Part shown: positions 5,434 through 29,335 of the stretch, piece by piece
Layout of the letters: each line of letters starts with the position of its first letter
Numbering within the stretch: position 1 is the stretch's first letter
Assembly (NCBI GenBank): GCA_022826485.1
Contig: JAJDUU010000034.1
Span: 1 to 64,000 of the forward strand
From: Chloroflexota bacterium
Lineage (GTDB): Bacteria; Chloroflexota; UBA11872
DNA length: 64,000 nt
Direction: 5' to 3'
Position numbers and translations under genes: made by a program
The notes under the pieces: model-generated
The model's database searches: none
Told to the model about the DNA's origin: nothing
What the model saw: only the letters and a program-made list of their open reading frames with translations

Positions 5434-5544
5434 GCGCGCGCCTCTTCTCGTGGCAGTCCGCGGGGGCGCATTGTAGGCATCAGCACTCGCGATGCCACAG
5501 CGTCGGTTGATCATCTCCGTACACAGACTCCCAGAAGTTGACGG

Positions 5545-22772: not shown

Positions 22773-22841
22773 TCGGACCCGTGTTGTGGGCGGGGACGGT
22801 CGCCCGTACGATCGCGGTAGCTACTTCGCGGGAGGCGTGTG

Positions 22842-23309
22842 ATGTCTGAAACAGCGACTTTGAAGGTGGGCGACGAGGCCCCGGACTTTGAGCTACCGAC
22901 GGCCCCAAGGGACGCAGAGCCATTCAAGCTGAGCGACCATCGCGGGTCCACGGTGGTGATCAACTTCGTGCCGGCGGCGTTTTCGCCGGTGTGCAGCGAC
23001 CAGCTCCCGATCATCGAGGAGAAGCTGGGCGGGCTCGCCGGGACGGTGACGGTCGCGATCTCGACGGATAACACGTGGACGCTGAAGGCCTGGGCCGAGC
23101 AGTCGGGCGTGACCTATCCGGTGCTGAGCGACTTCAACCCGCTCGGGGCGACGGCGAGCGCGTACGGGGTGCTGATCGAGGACATGAACATCGCGAACCG
23201 CGTGGTCGTGGTGGTCGACGGGGACGGCAAGGTCGCGCATATCGAGAAGGCGCCCGAGGTGGTGGAGCTGCCCGACTACGACCCCGTGATGGCGTGCCTA
23301 TCGGGCTGA
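22842..23309 (+). CDS. AhpE/AhpC-type peroxiredoxin
   Basis: This thiol peroxidase has 155 residues. The thioredoxin-fold N-terminus VGDEAPDFELPT is followed by VPAAFSPVCSDQLP with the peroxidatic Cys51 in the PxxxSxxC motif. No obvious resolving cysteine appears in the AhpC position (the only other Cys is near the C-terminus, MACLSG), so it may be a 1-Cys enzyme. The ATG at 22842 has GGGAGG eight bases upstream. It lies between two remnants of the ABC exporter tail. Confidence 0.92.
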   Translation: MSETATLKVGDEAPDFELPTAPRDAEPFKLSDHRGSTVVINFVPAAFSPVCSDQLPIIEEKLGGLAGTVTVAISTDNTWTLKAWAEQSGVTYPVLSDFNPLGATASAYGVLIEDMNIANRVVVVVDGDGKVAHIEKAPEVVELPDYDPVMACLSG

Positions 23310-25050: not shown

Positions 25051-26073
25051 GTGAGCTACCTGACCACCGACAAGGTCGCCGTGATGGGCGCGGCGGGCGC
25101 CGTGGGCTCGAACCTGGTCCAGGCGCTGCTGTCCACCGGCACGGCCAACACCGTCGCCATGTACGACCCGTACGGGCCGGGCCTGGAGGGCGCGGCGGAG
25201 GAGATCTACCACTGCGCCTTTCCCGAGGCGCAGGTGACCTGGACGACGGACGCGGGCGAGGCGCTGGACGGCGCGGCCTATGTGCTCAGCTCCGGCGGAG
25301 CGCCGCGGCGCGAGGGCATGACGCGCGAGGACCTGCTGCGCGGCAACGCGGAGATCGCGGCGCAGCTGGGACGCGACATCAACGCCCACGCGCCCGAGGC
25401 CAAGCTGGTGGTGATCGTGTTCAACCCGGCCGACGTCACCGGGCTGGTGACCCTGGTGCACTCGGGACTGCGGCCACAGTGCGTGACCACGTTGGCGGCG
25501 CTGGATAGCACCCGCTTGCAGACGCGCCTGGCGCAGCATTTCGGCGTGCCCCAGCACCGCATCGTCGGCTGCCGCACCTATGGCGGACACGGCCAGGAGA
25601 TGGCGCTCTACAAGGGCGCGATTCAGATCGACGGGGTGCCGCTCAACGCCATCGTGAACGACGGCGCTGAGGCTAACGGCGTGGGGTTGGACGCCGACGG
25701 CTGGCAGGCGATCCGCGAGCATGTGCTCGGCGGCGGGGCGCGCGTGATCAAGCTGCGGGGACGCTCGTCGTTCCAATCGCCGGCGCACCTCACCGCGATG
25801 ATGGTGCGGGCGGCCTGCGGCGGCGAGCCGTTCGATTGGCCCTGCGGCGCCTTCGTGACCGGCGAGCCGTACACCAACGTCATGATGGCCATGCCCACGA
25901 CGCTCGGTCCGGGCGGGGTCGCCTGGCGGCTGCCCGAAGGCGACCCGGACGAACGGGCGGAACTCGACGCGGCCTACGCGCACCTACAGCATCTGCGCGA
26001 CGAGACGATCGGCATGGGCCTGATCCCGGCCATCGCCGATTGGGGCTCGGTGAACCCGCACCTGGCGGGCTGA
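25051..26073 (+). CDS. malate/lactate dehydrogenase-family oxidoreductase
   Basis: This 340-residue LDH/MDH-superfamily NAD enzyme starts with KVAVMGAAGAVGSNLVQALL (Rossmann). GAPRREGMTREDLL carries the substrate-loop arginine. NPADVTGLV replaces the usual NPVDxxT. GGHGQEMALY carries the catalytic His. The sequence is divergent enough that the true 2-hydroxy-acid substrate is uncertain. The GTG at 25051 is preferred because a G-run lies four bases upstream; an alternative GTG at 25033 overlaps the aldolase stop. It is convergent with the redoxin gene that follows. Confidence 0.87.
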   Translation: MSYLTTDKVAVMGAAGAVGSNLVQALLSTGTANTVAMYDPYGPGLEGAAEEIYHCAFPEAQVTWTTDAGEALDGAAYVLSSGGAPRREGMTREDLLRGNAEIAAQLGRDINAHAPEAKLVVIVFNPADVTGLVTLVHSGLRPQCVTTLAALDSTRLQTRLAQHFGVPQHRIVGCRTYGGHGQEMALYKGAIQIDGVPLNAIVNDGAEANGVGLDADGWQAIREHVLGGGARVIKLRGRSSFQSPAHLTAMMVRAACGGEPFDWPCGAFVTGEPYTNVMMAMPTTLGPGGVAWRLPEGDPDERAELDAAYAHLQHLRDETIGMGLIPAIADWGSVNPHLAG

Positions 26074-26080
26074 CGCGGGG

Positions 26081-26539
26081 TCAGCCGTAGGTGCGCATCA
26101 GCTCTTCAGGCGTGAGGCGGCCGGCGTTGGTGGCCGAGTAGACGGCCGCCTCGACGCGGCGGTCGGCGTCCAGCACAAAGGCCGTGGCCTGGAAGGCGCG
26201 GCGCCGCTCGAAACGGTAGGCGCCCACCGCGTCGAGGGCGTCGGGATAGGCCAGCTCGCCCACCAGCGGGAATTCAAGCCCCAGGCGCTCCGTCAGCGCC
26301 GCGATGTCCTCGCGCGAGTCGACGGAGAGGCCCACCACGTCGACGCCGATCGCGTCAAGGGTGTCGAGCAACCAGTTGTAGCCGGCCAACTGCCGGCGAC
26401 AGTGCGATCACCAGTGCCCGCGGTAGAACAGCAACGCCGTGCGCCGGTCCCCGAGATCGTCGGGGATTCGGAACGGCGTGCCATCGCCCAGCACGCCCTC
26501 GAGCGTTGGAAACGCATCGCCGAGGTTCAGTCTTGCCAT
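26081..26539 (-). CDS. probable selenocysteine-containing peroxiredoxin/redoxin (UxxC)
   Basis: A 152-residue AhpC/TSA-family redoxin is recovered only if the in-frame UGA at 26408-26410 is read through. The N-terminal part (MARLNLGDAFPTLEGVLGDG) and the C-terminal part (GVDVVGLSVDSREDIAALTE to the end) share one frame with no shift. The UGA falls at residue 44 in FYRGHW-U-SHCRRQLAGY. Cysteine homologues have FYRG.WCPxC there, so UGA replaces the redox-active cysteine and Cys47 remains as partner. A hairpin meeting bacterial SECIS rules follows directly (26381-26397). An AGGGGAG ribosome site lies seven bases before the ATG at 26539. The alternative is a nonsense mutation or sequencing error. 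It is divergent from a glutaredoxin gene. Confidence 0.75.
26381..26397 (-). promoter_or_regulatory. putative bacterial SECIS element
   Basis: On the minus strand GCCGGC pairs with GCCGGC around the loop AGTTG. A further TGT/ACA extension pairs beyond one mismatch. The loop begins 16 bases after the UGA and has a G in its first two positions. These are features expected of a bacterial selenocysteine insertion element that SelB would bind; the match is by eye only. Confidence 0.5.
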
Positions 26540-26700: not shown

Positions 26701-27048
26701 ATGGCAACGCAGTCCACACCCGAGATCGTGGCGTATCTGAAGCCCGTATGCGGCTGGAGCGCCGGCGTCCGCGCCGTCTTCGACAAGTACGAGCTGGCCT
26801 ACGAGGACCGGGACATCATCAACAACCCGCTGAACTACCAGGAAATGGTGATCAAGAGCGGCCAGCCGCTGTCGCCGTGCGTGGTGGTGGACGACCGCAT
26901 GCTGGCCGACGTCAGCGGCGAAGAGGTCGAGGCCTGGCTGGCCGACAAGGGCTACATCGCCAAGAACAACCTGCCCACCCCAGTCCCCATCGACCGCGCC
27001 TGCGCCGACGAGGTTCACGCGGCCAACGTCTCGTTCGAGGACATGTAG
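26701..27048 (+). CDS. monothiol-type glutaredoxin
   Basis: This 115-residue thioredoxin-fold protein has the active site CGWS (Cys17, Ser20) and the glutathione-site segment GQPLSPCVVVDDRMLADVSGEEVEAWL. Monothiol glutaredoxins often carry Fe-S clusters or reduce glutathionylated proteins. The C-terminal extension NLPTPVPIDRACADEVHAANVSFEDM is unusual. The DNA encoding its last 20 residues is duplicated at 29019-29082, beyond the toxin-antitoxin genes. The ATG has GGAGA about eight bases upstream. Confidence 0.88.
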   Translation: MATQSTPEIVAYLKPVCGWSAGVRAVFDKYELAYEDRDIINNPLNYQEMVIKSGQPLSPCVVVDDRMLADVSGEEVEAWLADKGYIAKNNLPTPVPIDRACADEVHAANVSFEDM

Positions 27049-27052
27049 CGCC
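26989..27052 (+). repeat. direct repeat, left copy (glutaredoxin 3' end)
   Basis: These 64 bases run from the IDRACADEV codons through the stop. They match 29019-29082 with two differences seen by eye. The two copies bracket the ImmA/IrrE and DUF4411 genes. Confidence 0.88.
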
Positions 27053-27212
27053 CGAGCGGCTCACTGCCTGGCGGATGCGAATCGCTGGGGGCCGGGTGTC
27101 CGGCTAGCCCGACGCCGGGAAGAACTACAACCGTCGGAGTTCGGTTGCGGGCGGCTGCTTTCTATAATTTCGGCCAGCCTGACGCCGATTGCCGGTGGGG
27201 AGTAGGAGCGCA

Positions 27213-28370
27213 TTGAGCAGGCTAAGGGTTACCTTGCAGCCCGCCGTGCTGCGTTGGGCCAGAGAGCGGGCGGGACTAGATGTGGCCAAGCTCGCCGCGA
27301 AGTTTCCTGTCCGGCCGGAGCGTGTGACCGACTGGGAGACCTCGGGCAGCATCACGATGGCTCAGGCCGACAAGCTAGCTCGCTGCACCTACACCCCGGT
27401 GGGTTACCTGTACCTGAGCGAACCACCCGAGGACCGTTTGCCAATAGCCGACTTCCGCACCCCCAGCGCCGAATCACACCGCCGGCCAAGTCCGAATCTT
27501 CTAGAAACCGTGCATCTCATGCAGCGCCGCCAGGCGTGGATGCGCGATGACATCATTGAGGAAGGCGGCGAATCGCTGCGATTTGTTGCGTCCCACGACC
27601 TGGATTCTTCACCAGAGCACGTGGCAGCGGCTATGCACGACGCCCTCGGCCTCGCGCGCGGTTGGGCGGCAGCCGACGGTGCGTGGTCCGGCGCCCTCAG
27701 ACGTCTCCGGAACCAGGTTGAGCGTGCTGGTGTACTGGTGGCCTTCAATGGAATTGTAGGGAACAACACCCACCGCAAACTCGACCGTGATGAATTTCAA
27801 GGATTTGCGCTTGTGGACGAATATGCTCCACTTGTCTTTGTTAACAGTGCGGACTTTGTGGCTGCTCAGATGTTCACGCTTTGCCACGAATTGGCGCATA
27901 TCTTCATCGGGGAAGCTGGCATATCCAAGTTTGAAGCGCTTCAACCATCGGATCATGTCATCGAAGAGTTCTGCAATCAGACTGCCGCCGAGTTTCTGGT
28001 GCCTAGCGACGACCTTCGCCGGTTGTGGAGCGAGGCCAGTTACCGGGACGACACATACGACGCCATAGCCCGGCACTTCAAGGTCAGTCAATTGGTGGCC
28101 GCGCGGCGGGCGCAGGACGTCGAATTGATCAGTCGGAATGAGTTTCTCGACTTTTACGAACGCTTTCGGGCAGGTGAGCGCCAGCGGGGTCGTCCCAGTG
28201 GGGGGAACTTCTGGAACACCCAAAACACCCGAATCGGGCGCCGGTTTGAGGAGGCCATAGTCCGAGCCGTTCGTGAAGACCGCCTGCTGTACCGCGAGGC
28301 TTACGCTCTCACGGGGCTCAAAGGCGAGACATTCGAGCGGTTGATCGCGAGGAACAGCACACAGCTGTGA
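27213..28370 (+). CDS. XRE-type HTH / ImmA-IrrE metallopeptidase (antitoxin-regulator)
   Basis: This 385-residue protein combines a DNA-binding N-terminus with a zinc peptidase domain. A helix-turn-helix lies at about 10-50 (RWARERAGLDVAKLAAKF...VTDWE). The peptidase motif FTLCHELAHIFIG is at about 220-232, with HExxH-type ligands as HELAH. A downstream acidic ligand is likely in EEFCNQTAAEFLVP. I chose the TTG at 27213 with TAGGAG five bases upstream; earlier in-frame alternatives exist. Its stop overlaps the DUF4411 start (GTGA), a classic toxin-antitoxin arrangement. The gene is more AT-rich than its neighbours. Confidence 0.85.
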   Translation: MSRLRVTLQPAVLRWARERAGLDVAKLAAKFPVRPERVTDWETSGSITMAQADKLARCTYTPVGYLYLSEPPEDRLPIADFRTPSAESHRRPSPNLLETVHLMQRRQAWMRDDIIEEGGESLRFVASHDLDSSPEHVAAAMHDALGLARGWAAADGAWSGALRRLRNQVERAGVLVAFNGIVGNNTHRKLDRDEFQGFALVDEYAPLVFVNSADFVAAQMFTLCHELAHIFIGEAGISKFEALQPSDHVIEEFCNQTAAEFLVPSDDLRRLWSEASYRDDTYDAIARHFKVSQLVAARRAQDVELISRNEFLDFYERFRAGERQRGRPSGGNFWNTQNTRIGRRFEEAIVRAVREDRLLYREAYALTGLKGETFERLIARNSTQL

Positions 28371-28885
28371 CCGAGCGCGCAGGAGCAGGATTTCTGGTCG
28401 ACTCCAGTGTGCTCATCGAGGCGTATCGCCGCTACTACGGCTTGGACATTTGCCCAGGATTCTGGGACTGCTTGCTCCATCACTGCAGTGATCAGCGCTT
28501 GCTGAGCATCGACCGAGTTCGTGAAGAACTCAAGCAGGGTGGAGGTCCGTTGGCCGATTGGGCAAACCTGAGGGCGAGCGACTTGTTCGCCTCGTCCAGA
28601 GAGCCGCCAGTCGTCACCGAGTATGGAAACGTCATGGCTTGGGTCTACGGAAGCGGCCAGTTCCTTGGTCAGGCGAAGGCTGACTTCGCCTCAGGTGCCG
28701 ACGGCTGGCTTGTTGCATATGCGAGGGTTCACGGGAGAACCTTGGTGACGCAGGAGGTCTATAACCCAAGTATCAAGAAGAGAGTGCCCTTACCCAATGT
28801 CTGTCGCGAGTTCGGAGTAGACACTACCCATACGTTCAGGATGCTACGGGTGCTTGACGCGGCGTTCCATTGGGCGACGCCGTGA
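28367..28885 (+). CDS. DUF4411 PIN-like toxin
   Basis: This 172-residue PIN-fold-like protein begins FLVDSSVLIEAYRRYYGLDICPGFWD, the DUF4411 signature with the first catalytic Asp12. Other acidic residues are in DRVREELKQGG and ADGWLVAYARVHG, and VTQEVYNPSIKKRVPLPNVCREF matches the family end. DUF4411 proteins are treated as ribonuclease toxins, paired with ImmA/IrrE-type HTH partners. The GTG start overlaps the antitoxin stop. The pair lies between two copies of the glutaredoxin gene end. Confidence 0.85.
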   Translation: MTERAGAGFLVDSSVLIEAYRRYYGLDICPGFWDCLLHHCSDQRLLSIDRVREELKQGGGPLADWANLRASDLFASSREPPVVTEYGNVMAWVYGSGQFLGQAKADFASGADGWLVAYARVHGRTLVTQEVYNPSIKKRVPLPNVCREFGVDTTHTFRMLRVLDAAFHWATP

Positions 28886-29018: not shown

Positions 29019-29082
29019 ATCGACCGCGCCTGCGCCGACGAGGTCCACGCGGCCAACGTCTCGTTCGAGGACCTGTAGCGCC
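29019..29082 (+). repeat. direct repeat, right copy (glutaredoxin 3'-end remnant)
   Basis: The translation LPTLILIDRACADEVHAANVSFEDL repeats the glutaredoxin C-terminus with few changes and keeps its stop codon; similarity begins near 29001. It has no active-site part. The rest of the 28886-29296 gap shows no gene I recognise. Confidence 0.88.
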
Positions 29083-29335
29083 GGACGCACAACCCAATCC
29101 GCCTCGCGCGGCTTGGCGCGTCGGCTCCTGCTCCGAGTCGAAGCCGCGCGAGACGATTGGCGCAATCTGACGCCGCATCCCCGAGCAGCGGGCATCCGGC
29201 CGCGTCGTTACCCTAGTGATCGATTCGTTGCCGCGTGTACGCTAGGCGGGCCGGCCGGCAGAGTCGGCCCGCGTTTCCCGGATCGAGACTTCTTTCCTGC
29301 GCCCCATTCGCCCCTTCGTCGTAGCCGTCGCCTTA

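Follow-up and report, generated by a model that had tools for sequence, protein, structure and literature searches.

A redoxin gene on the minus strand of a Chloroflexota contig is interrupted by a UGA at codon 44, and comparison of sequences argues that this codon is read as selenocysteine (Sec) and that the gene is a genuine bacterial selenoprotein gene, with a probability that we put at about 0.96. A preliminary description of the window (the whole 64-kb stretch of DNA analyzed here) had already named a probable selenoprotein at this site, and the proposal was strengthened by the Sec machinery in the genome, the conservation of the UGA, selection downstream of it, and covariation in a hairpin. 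Sec insertion itself at codon 44 we infer from this comparative evidence: SelB with Sec-tRNA(Sec) would insert selenocysteine at the UGA, steered by a SECIS hairpin within the coding sequence, just 3′ of that codon. Gene calling with table 11 would truncate or miss the gene at 26081-26539. The features are collected in Table 1.

Table 1. Features of the predicted selenoprotein locus (window coordinates)
Feature	Position	Strand	Evidence or remark
Predicted Prx-like selenoprotein gene	26081..26539	minus	ATG 26539-26537, terminal TGA 26083-26081
In-frame TGA, codon 44 (predicted Sec44), first position of U-S-H-C	26408..26410	minus	codon kept in 19/19 family loci; 9/9 outside homologues carry Cys
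Shine-Dalgarno-like AGGGGAG ahead of the start codon	26547..26553	minus	sequence
Codon of Cys47, which closes the UxxC motif and occupies the column of the peroxidatic Cys in true peroxiredoxins	26399..26401	minus	alignment
Core SECIS-like hairpin GCCGGC-AGUUG-GCCGGC	26381..26397	minus	stem 26397-26392 with 26386-26381, loop 26391-26387
Possible lower helix around the core hairpin, GCA (26405-26403) with UGC (26370-26368)	26368..26405	minus	in MFE folds of most rows
Divergent glutaredoxin-domain gene, CGWS (CxxS)	26701..27048	plus	PF00462; tblastn 78-100% identity
Convergent malate/lactate-dehydrogenase-like gene	25054..26073	plus	tblastn 74-100% identity; name from sequence

Reading frame, active site and proposed chemistry

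The minus-strand frame 26539-26081 encodes 152 residues (153 codons counting the terminal TGA), and the TGA at 26410-26408, in the residue context FYRGHW-U-SHCRRQL, is the single interruption between its ATG and its terminal TGA. With Cys placed at the UGA, the protein matched Pfam AhpC-TSA (E 2.3e-15; 57.1 bits against a gathering cut-off of 26) and Redoxin (E 3.1e-7; 30.7 bits against a cut-off of 26.6). Because these matches run unbroken over residues 7 to 130, a single domain lies on both sides of the TGA, and the AhpC/TSA-like frame is continuous across it, as had been noticed from the letters. Frame openness was dropped as evidence for Sec, since the G+C-rich window holds 463 TGAs that are flanked on each side by 25 or more open codons. 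Such TGAs are common by chance, so that openness proves nothing on its own, and comparative data have to carry the argument. Further TGAs of the window that lie close to a Cys were assessed by eye; one of them, at 5482 on the minus strand, was followed further and lies ahead of a separate open reading frame that has its own start.

Alignment with peroxiredoxins of Aeropyrum and Sulfolobus placed U44 on the Thr, C47 on the peroxidatic Cys and R40 on the Pro of the catalytic motif PxxxTxxC. With Sec44 in the Thr column and Cys47 in that of the peroxidatic Cys, the motif takes the thioredoxin-like form UxxC, and U44-S-H-C47 was found in all 19 loci of the family described below. The preliminary description had set the UGA at a peroxidatic/redox cysteine; it does take the place of the N-terminal redox Cys of a thioredoxin-like CxxC, whereas the peroxidatic position belongs to Cys47. 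AlphaFold2 predicted, with confidence (mean pLDDT, 92.7), a thioredoxin/peroxiredoxin fold resembling peroxiredoxins and ResA, and 685 PDB matches to the model were obtained at E <= 0.001, the best of them Bcp-type peroxiredoxins (3hjp; TM 0.87), with ResA lower in the list.

Its domain and motif make a Prx-like thiol:disulfide oxidoreductase selenoprotein the best reading of the protein. The Sec of a UxxC motif, being the more reactive residue, is expected to be the one that attacks, according to established selenoenzyme chemistry. Most likely, the Sec44 selenolate would act as the nucleophile and Cys47 would resolve the selenenyl-sulfide, and the product would most likely serve either as a thiol:disulfide oxidoreductase or as a thiol-dependent peroxide reductase, which a thioredoxin or glutaredoxin might recycle; we infer both the nucleophile role and the redox partner. 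Sec might also be inserted into a true peroxiredoxin in which Cys47 is peroxidatic and Sec44 resolving, a rather unlikely arrangement that would suit the column occupied by Cys47 and the Bcp-type proteins as nearest solved folds. However, it fits poorly with RGHWUSHC, in which both the Pro and the Thr of PxxxTxxC are replaced, and with the attack expected from Sec.

Selenocysteine machinery, conservation of the UGA and selection

The genome that holds the window (3.17 Mb, 52 contigs, 96% complete) contains selA, selB, tRNA-Sec and selD, all on contigs of 127 to 210 kb. Scores above the cut-off were obtained for selA (492.7 bits; contig C44) and for selB (312 bits with its two pieces; a 629-aa frame on contig C30), and contig C30 also carries the tRNA-Sec gene selC (71.3 bits; anticodon UCA). 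The selD gene (378.9 bits; contig C17, L019 1420-2583) has its own UGA in SPGAGUACK, at the usual Sec position of SelD; with this active-site UGA, table 11 would annotate selD as truncated. A search for these four genes had been proposed in the preliminary description, and finding them all excludes the absence of selB and selC, which had been named there as a ground for refutation. Among 41 genomes of the class, selA was above the cut-off in 39 and tRNA-Sec in 34. Every genome carrying the Sec redoxin had selA, and 1 of these 18 genomes (G016) gave no tRNA-Sec match in its draft assembly.

Searching the 41 class genomes recovered 19 full-length loci in 18 genomes (63 to 99% identity), confined to the window's own GTDB family and each interrupted just once, by a TGA at codon 44. 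All nine outside homologues in the alignment (30 to 48% identity), from Thermomicrobiales, Actinoallomurus, Ktedonobacter (Ktedonobacteria), Dehalococcoidia, a gammaproteobacterium and others, have Cys in this column, as C-P-Y/F-C. Its preservation in all 19 family loci lifts the TGA above chance. The earlier claim that the UGA stands for the Cys of homologues and leaves UxxC thus holds, and the alignment suggested as a check on it gave TGA in all family loci against Cys outside the family. Across 400 genomes of the phylum, a search revealed a close Cys form in a single family with large genomes (f21; L087, L092, L093 and L094, of which L087 and L092 were read directly), and three more distant families with their own TGA in an FYRxxW-U-xxC context (L098, L099 and L100). 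Since f21 has Cys and the latter three have their own TGA, Sec and Cys would have been exchanged in this column more than once. The redoxins of L098, L099 and L100 carry the TGA in FYRAYW-U-SHC or FYRGDW-U-PYC, apparently further Sec residues in the same column.

Within two genera, the nonsynonymous/synonymous ratio was 0.08 and 0.14 upstream of the UGA and 0.05 and 0.08 downstream of it, a sign of purifying selection on either side. The values of 0.05 to 0.08 indicate that translation continues past the UGA. Between genera, upstream dS reached ~1.2 to 1.9, near saturation, yet the TGA was unchanged. The 12 codons 42 to 53 showed zero nucleotide changes among six genus members (codon-shuffle P of ~0.0007 for a stretch selected post hoc), in agreement with a SECIS that lies in the coding sequence and overlaps the active site. 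Near the 3′ end, codons 131 to 143 form another run, 13 codons in length and as long as the SECIS run, in which the genus members likewise show no nucleotide change.

These data bear on three other explanations of the UGA. A single substitution, from TGC or TGT to TGA, would suffice to turn a Cys redoxin into a pseudogene with a stop at its redox codon, but such a pseudogene is highly improbable: the TGA is kept in 19 loci from two genera at the dS given above, the Sec machinery is present, and the scarcity of nonsynonymous change after the TGA, a mark of purifying selection, refutes this reading. We give just as little credence to a genome-wide reassignment of UGA to Trp, Gly or Cys in place of local recoding; an in-frame UGA inside a conserved protein could be taken that way, but we rejected it on the terminal TGA of the gene itself in genus g1 (in those g2 copies that were checked, the stop is TAG or TAA) and on the presence of tRNA-Sec(UCA), selA, selB and selD. 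Least credible, to the point of being negligible, is a sequencing or assembly error at 26408-26410, which the 52 contigs of the source assembly might have suggested and which is refuted by the same codon in 18 separate assemblies, one of them (G018) a single contig.

A hairpin downstream of the UGA

The six pairs of the core hairpin form in every row (100% of cells paired), and sliding the partners cuts core pairing to 17 to 56%. Covariation was 0.214 versus 0.099 after shuffling, a value that comes from two pairs changed on both sides and few independent events in sequences that fall into two close groups. Pair two is C-G in genus 1 and G018 and G-C in the remaining rows, and pair five is G-C, G-U or A-U. 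These changes are coordinated with the protein: the codon of Gly-53 changes from GGC to GCC (Ala), and that of Arg-48 changes synonymously from CGC to CGG. The possible lower helix is invariant in all rows and is thus uninformative on pairing.

A published model of the bacterial SECIS describes a loop of 3 to 9 nt with a G within its first two bases, a stem of 4 to 16 bp, a distance of 16 to 37 nt from the UGA and an MFE of <= -7.5 kcal/mol (PMC13188914). The core hairpin has a 5-nt loop beginning with AG, a 6-bp stem, 16 nt between the UGA and the loop, the smallest spacing that the model allows, and an MFE of -8.8 to -11.5 kcal/mol across variants, within its limit. The preliminary description had given this spacing correctly; the stem had been said to start nine bases after the UGA, and the actual gap to GCCGGC is ten. 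Of the G residues claimed for both first loop positions, the second is present and the first is an A, an arrangement that the published rule still allows. Folding energy was dropped as SECIS evidence (z of -0.93, not unusual for the composition); because it is unexceptional on its own, support for the SECIS comes from position and covariation. An Rfam search at the hairpin site returned no known RNA family; a single family could not cover the diversity of bacterial SECIS elements.

Gene neighborhood, further redoxins and known selenoproteins

The glutaredoxin and malate/lactate-dehydrogenase-like genes flank the predicted selenoprotein gene in each of the 19 loci of the family. Divergence from a glutaredoxin gene, as first described, was confirmed by the PF00462 match, and the active site of this glutaredoxin is CxxS, not CxxC. 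A regulatory region shared by the two divergent genes is plausible; the divergent arrangement alone is no proof of joint function. That the U-S-H-C redoxin represents a distinct subfamily forming a dedicated redox pair with the CxxS glutaredoxin is a doubtful idea, to which we attach a low probability; if true, the pair would be of a type for which Prx-like selenoproteins offer no described example. A second AhpC/TSA protein, 3 kb away (22839-23309), has an ordinary SPVC site and no UGA.

The glutaredoxin gene region ends in 67 bp (~26989-27055) that are repeated at 29019-29085 with 95.5% identity, and the repeats bracket a gene for an M78/IrrE-type peptidase (27189-28370) and a DUF4411 gene (28367-28885). 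In a relative (L033, genome G004), the sequence from window position ~28999 joins the glutaredoxin end directly and the module is missing; a similar module occupies the same place in several sister-genus genomes (L037, L038, L042 and L044). The segment 27053-29085 looks like a small mobile module inserting at the glutaredoxin 3′ end, and it is probably toxin-antitoxin-like.

The same assembly holds a second copy of the three-gene block on a contig of 5,690 bases (L025, contig C8). Its DNA is 89 to 95% identical over ~2.4 kb to 11 loci of the sister genus g2, and its protein is ~64% identical to the window copy; mis-binning of a g2 organism's contig is therefore a more probable origin than paralogy. 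Tandem redoxins with a UGA in FYRAFW-U-xxC (L026, C39:142439-142762; L027, C39:143574-143921) are probable further selenoproteins. Similar pairs occur in other genus members, and the family seems to be selenoprotein rich.

Prx-like and Prx-like thiol:disulfide oxidoreductase selenoproteins with pfam00578 and UxxC have already been published (PMC1088965, PMC2398784, PMC9312934, PMC13188914). Like them, the predicted protein has an AhpC-TSA domain, a Sec in a thioredoxin-like UxxC, a SECIS shortly after the UGA, and common Cys homologues; it differs in having U-S-H-C where most Cys homologues have C-P-Y/F-C. Its subfamily may be Prx-like 1 or 3, the Redoxin family or cd02970. The FYRGxW motif may be shared by the cd02970 protein, which is reported under the name peroxiredoxin-like family (AhpC/TSA). 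That protein is listed with UxxS (PMC13188914), in contrast to UxxC here. The Sec-containing peroxiredoxin (TxxU) belongs to the same fold superfamily but has its Sec at the peroxidatic Cys, whereas here Sec would lie three residues earlier, at the Thr position. Weak similarity to the SelL-related redox protein NF040769 extends over residues 16 to 90 (20.5 bits, far below the curated cut-off of 120), and the double-Sec UxxU motif of SelL is absent. No dedicated study of the Chloroflexota selenoproteome was found in the open-access literature searched. This kind of selenoprotein has been catalogued since 2005 and what is known of selenocysteine itself is unchanged; the Chloroflexota gene adds a well-supported member, with a conserved neighborhood and a covarying SECIS, for an uncultured family.
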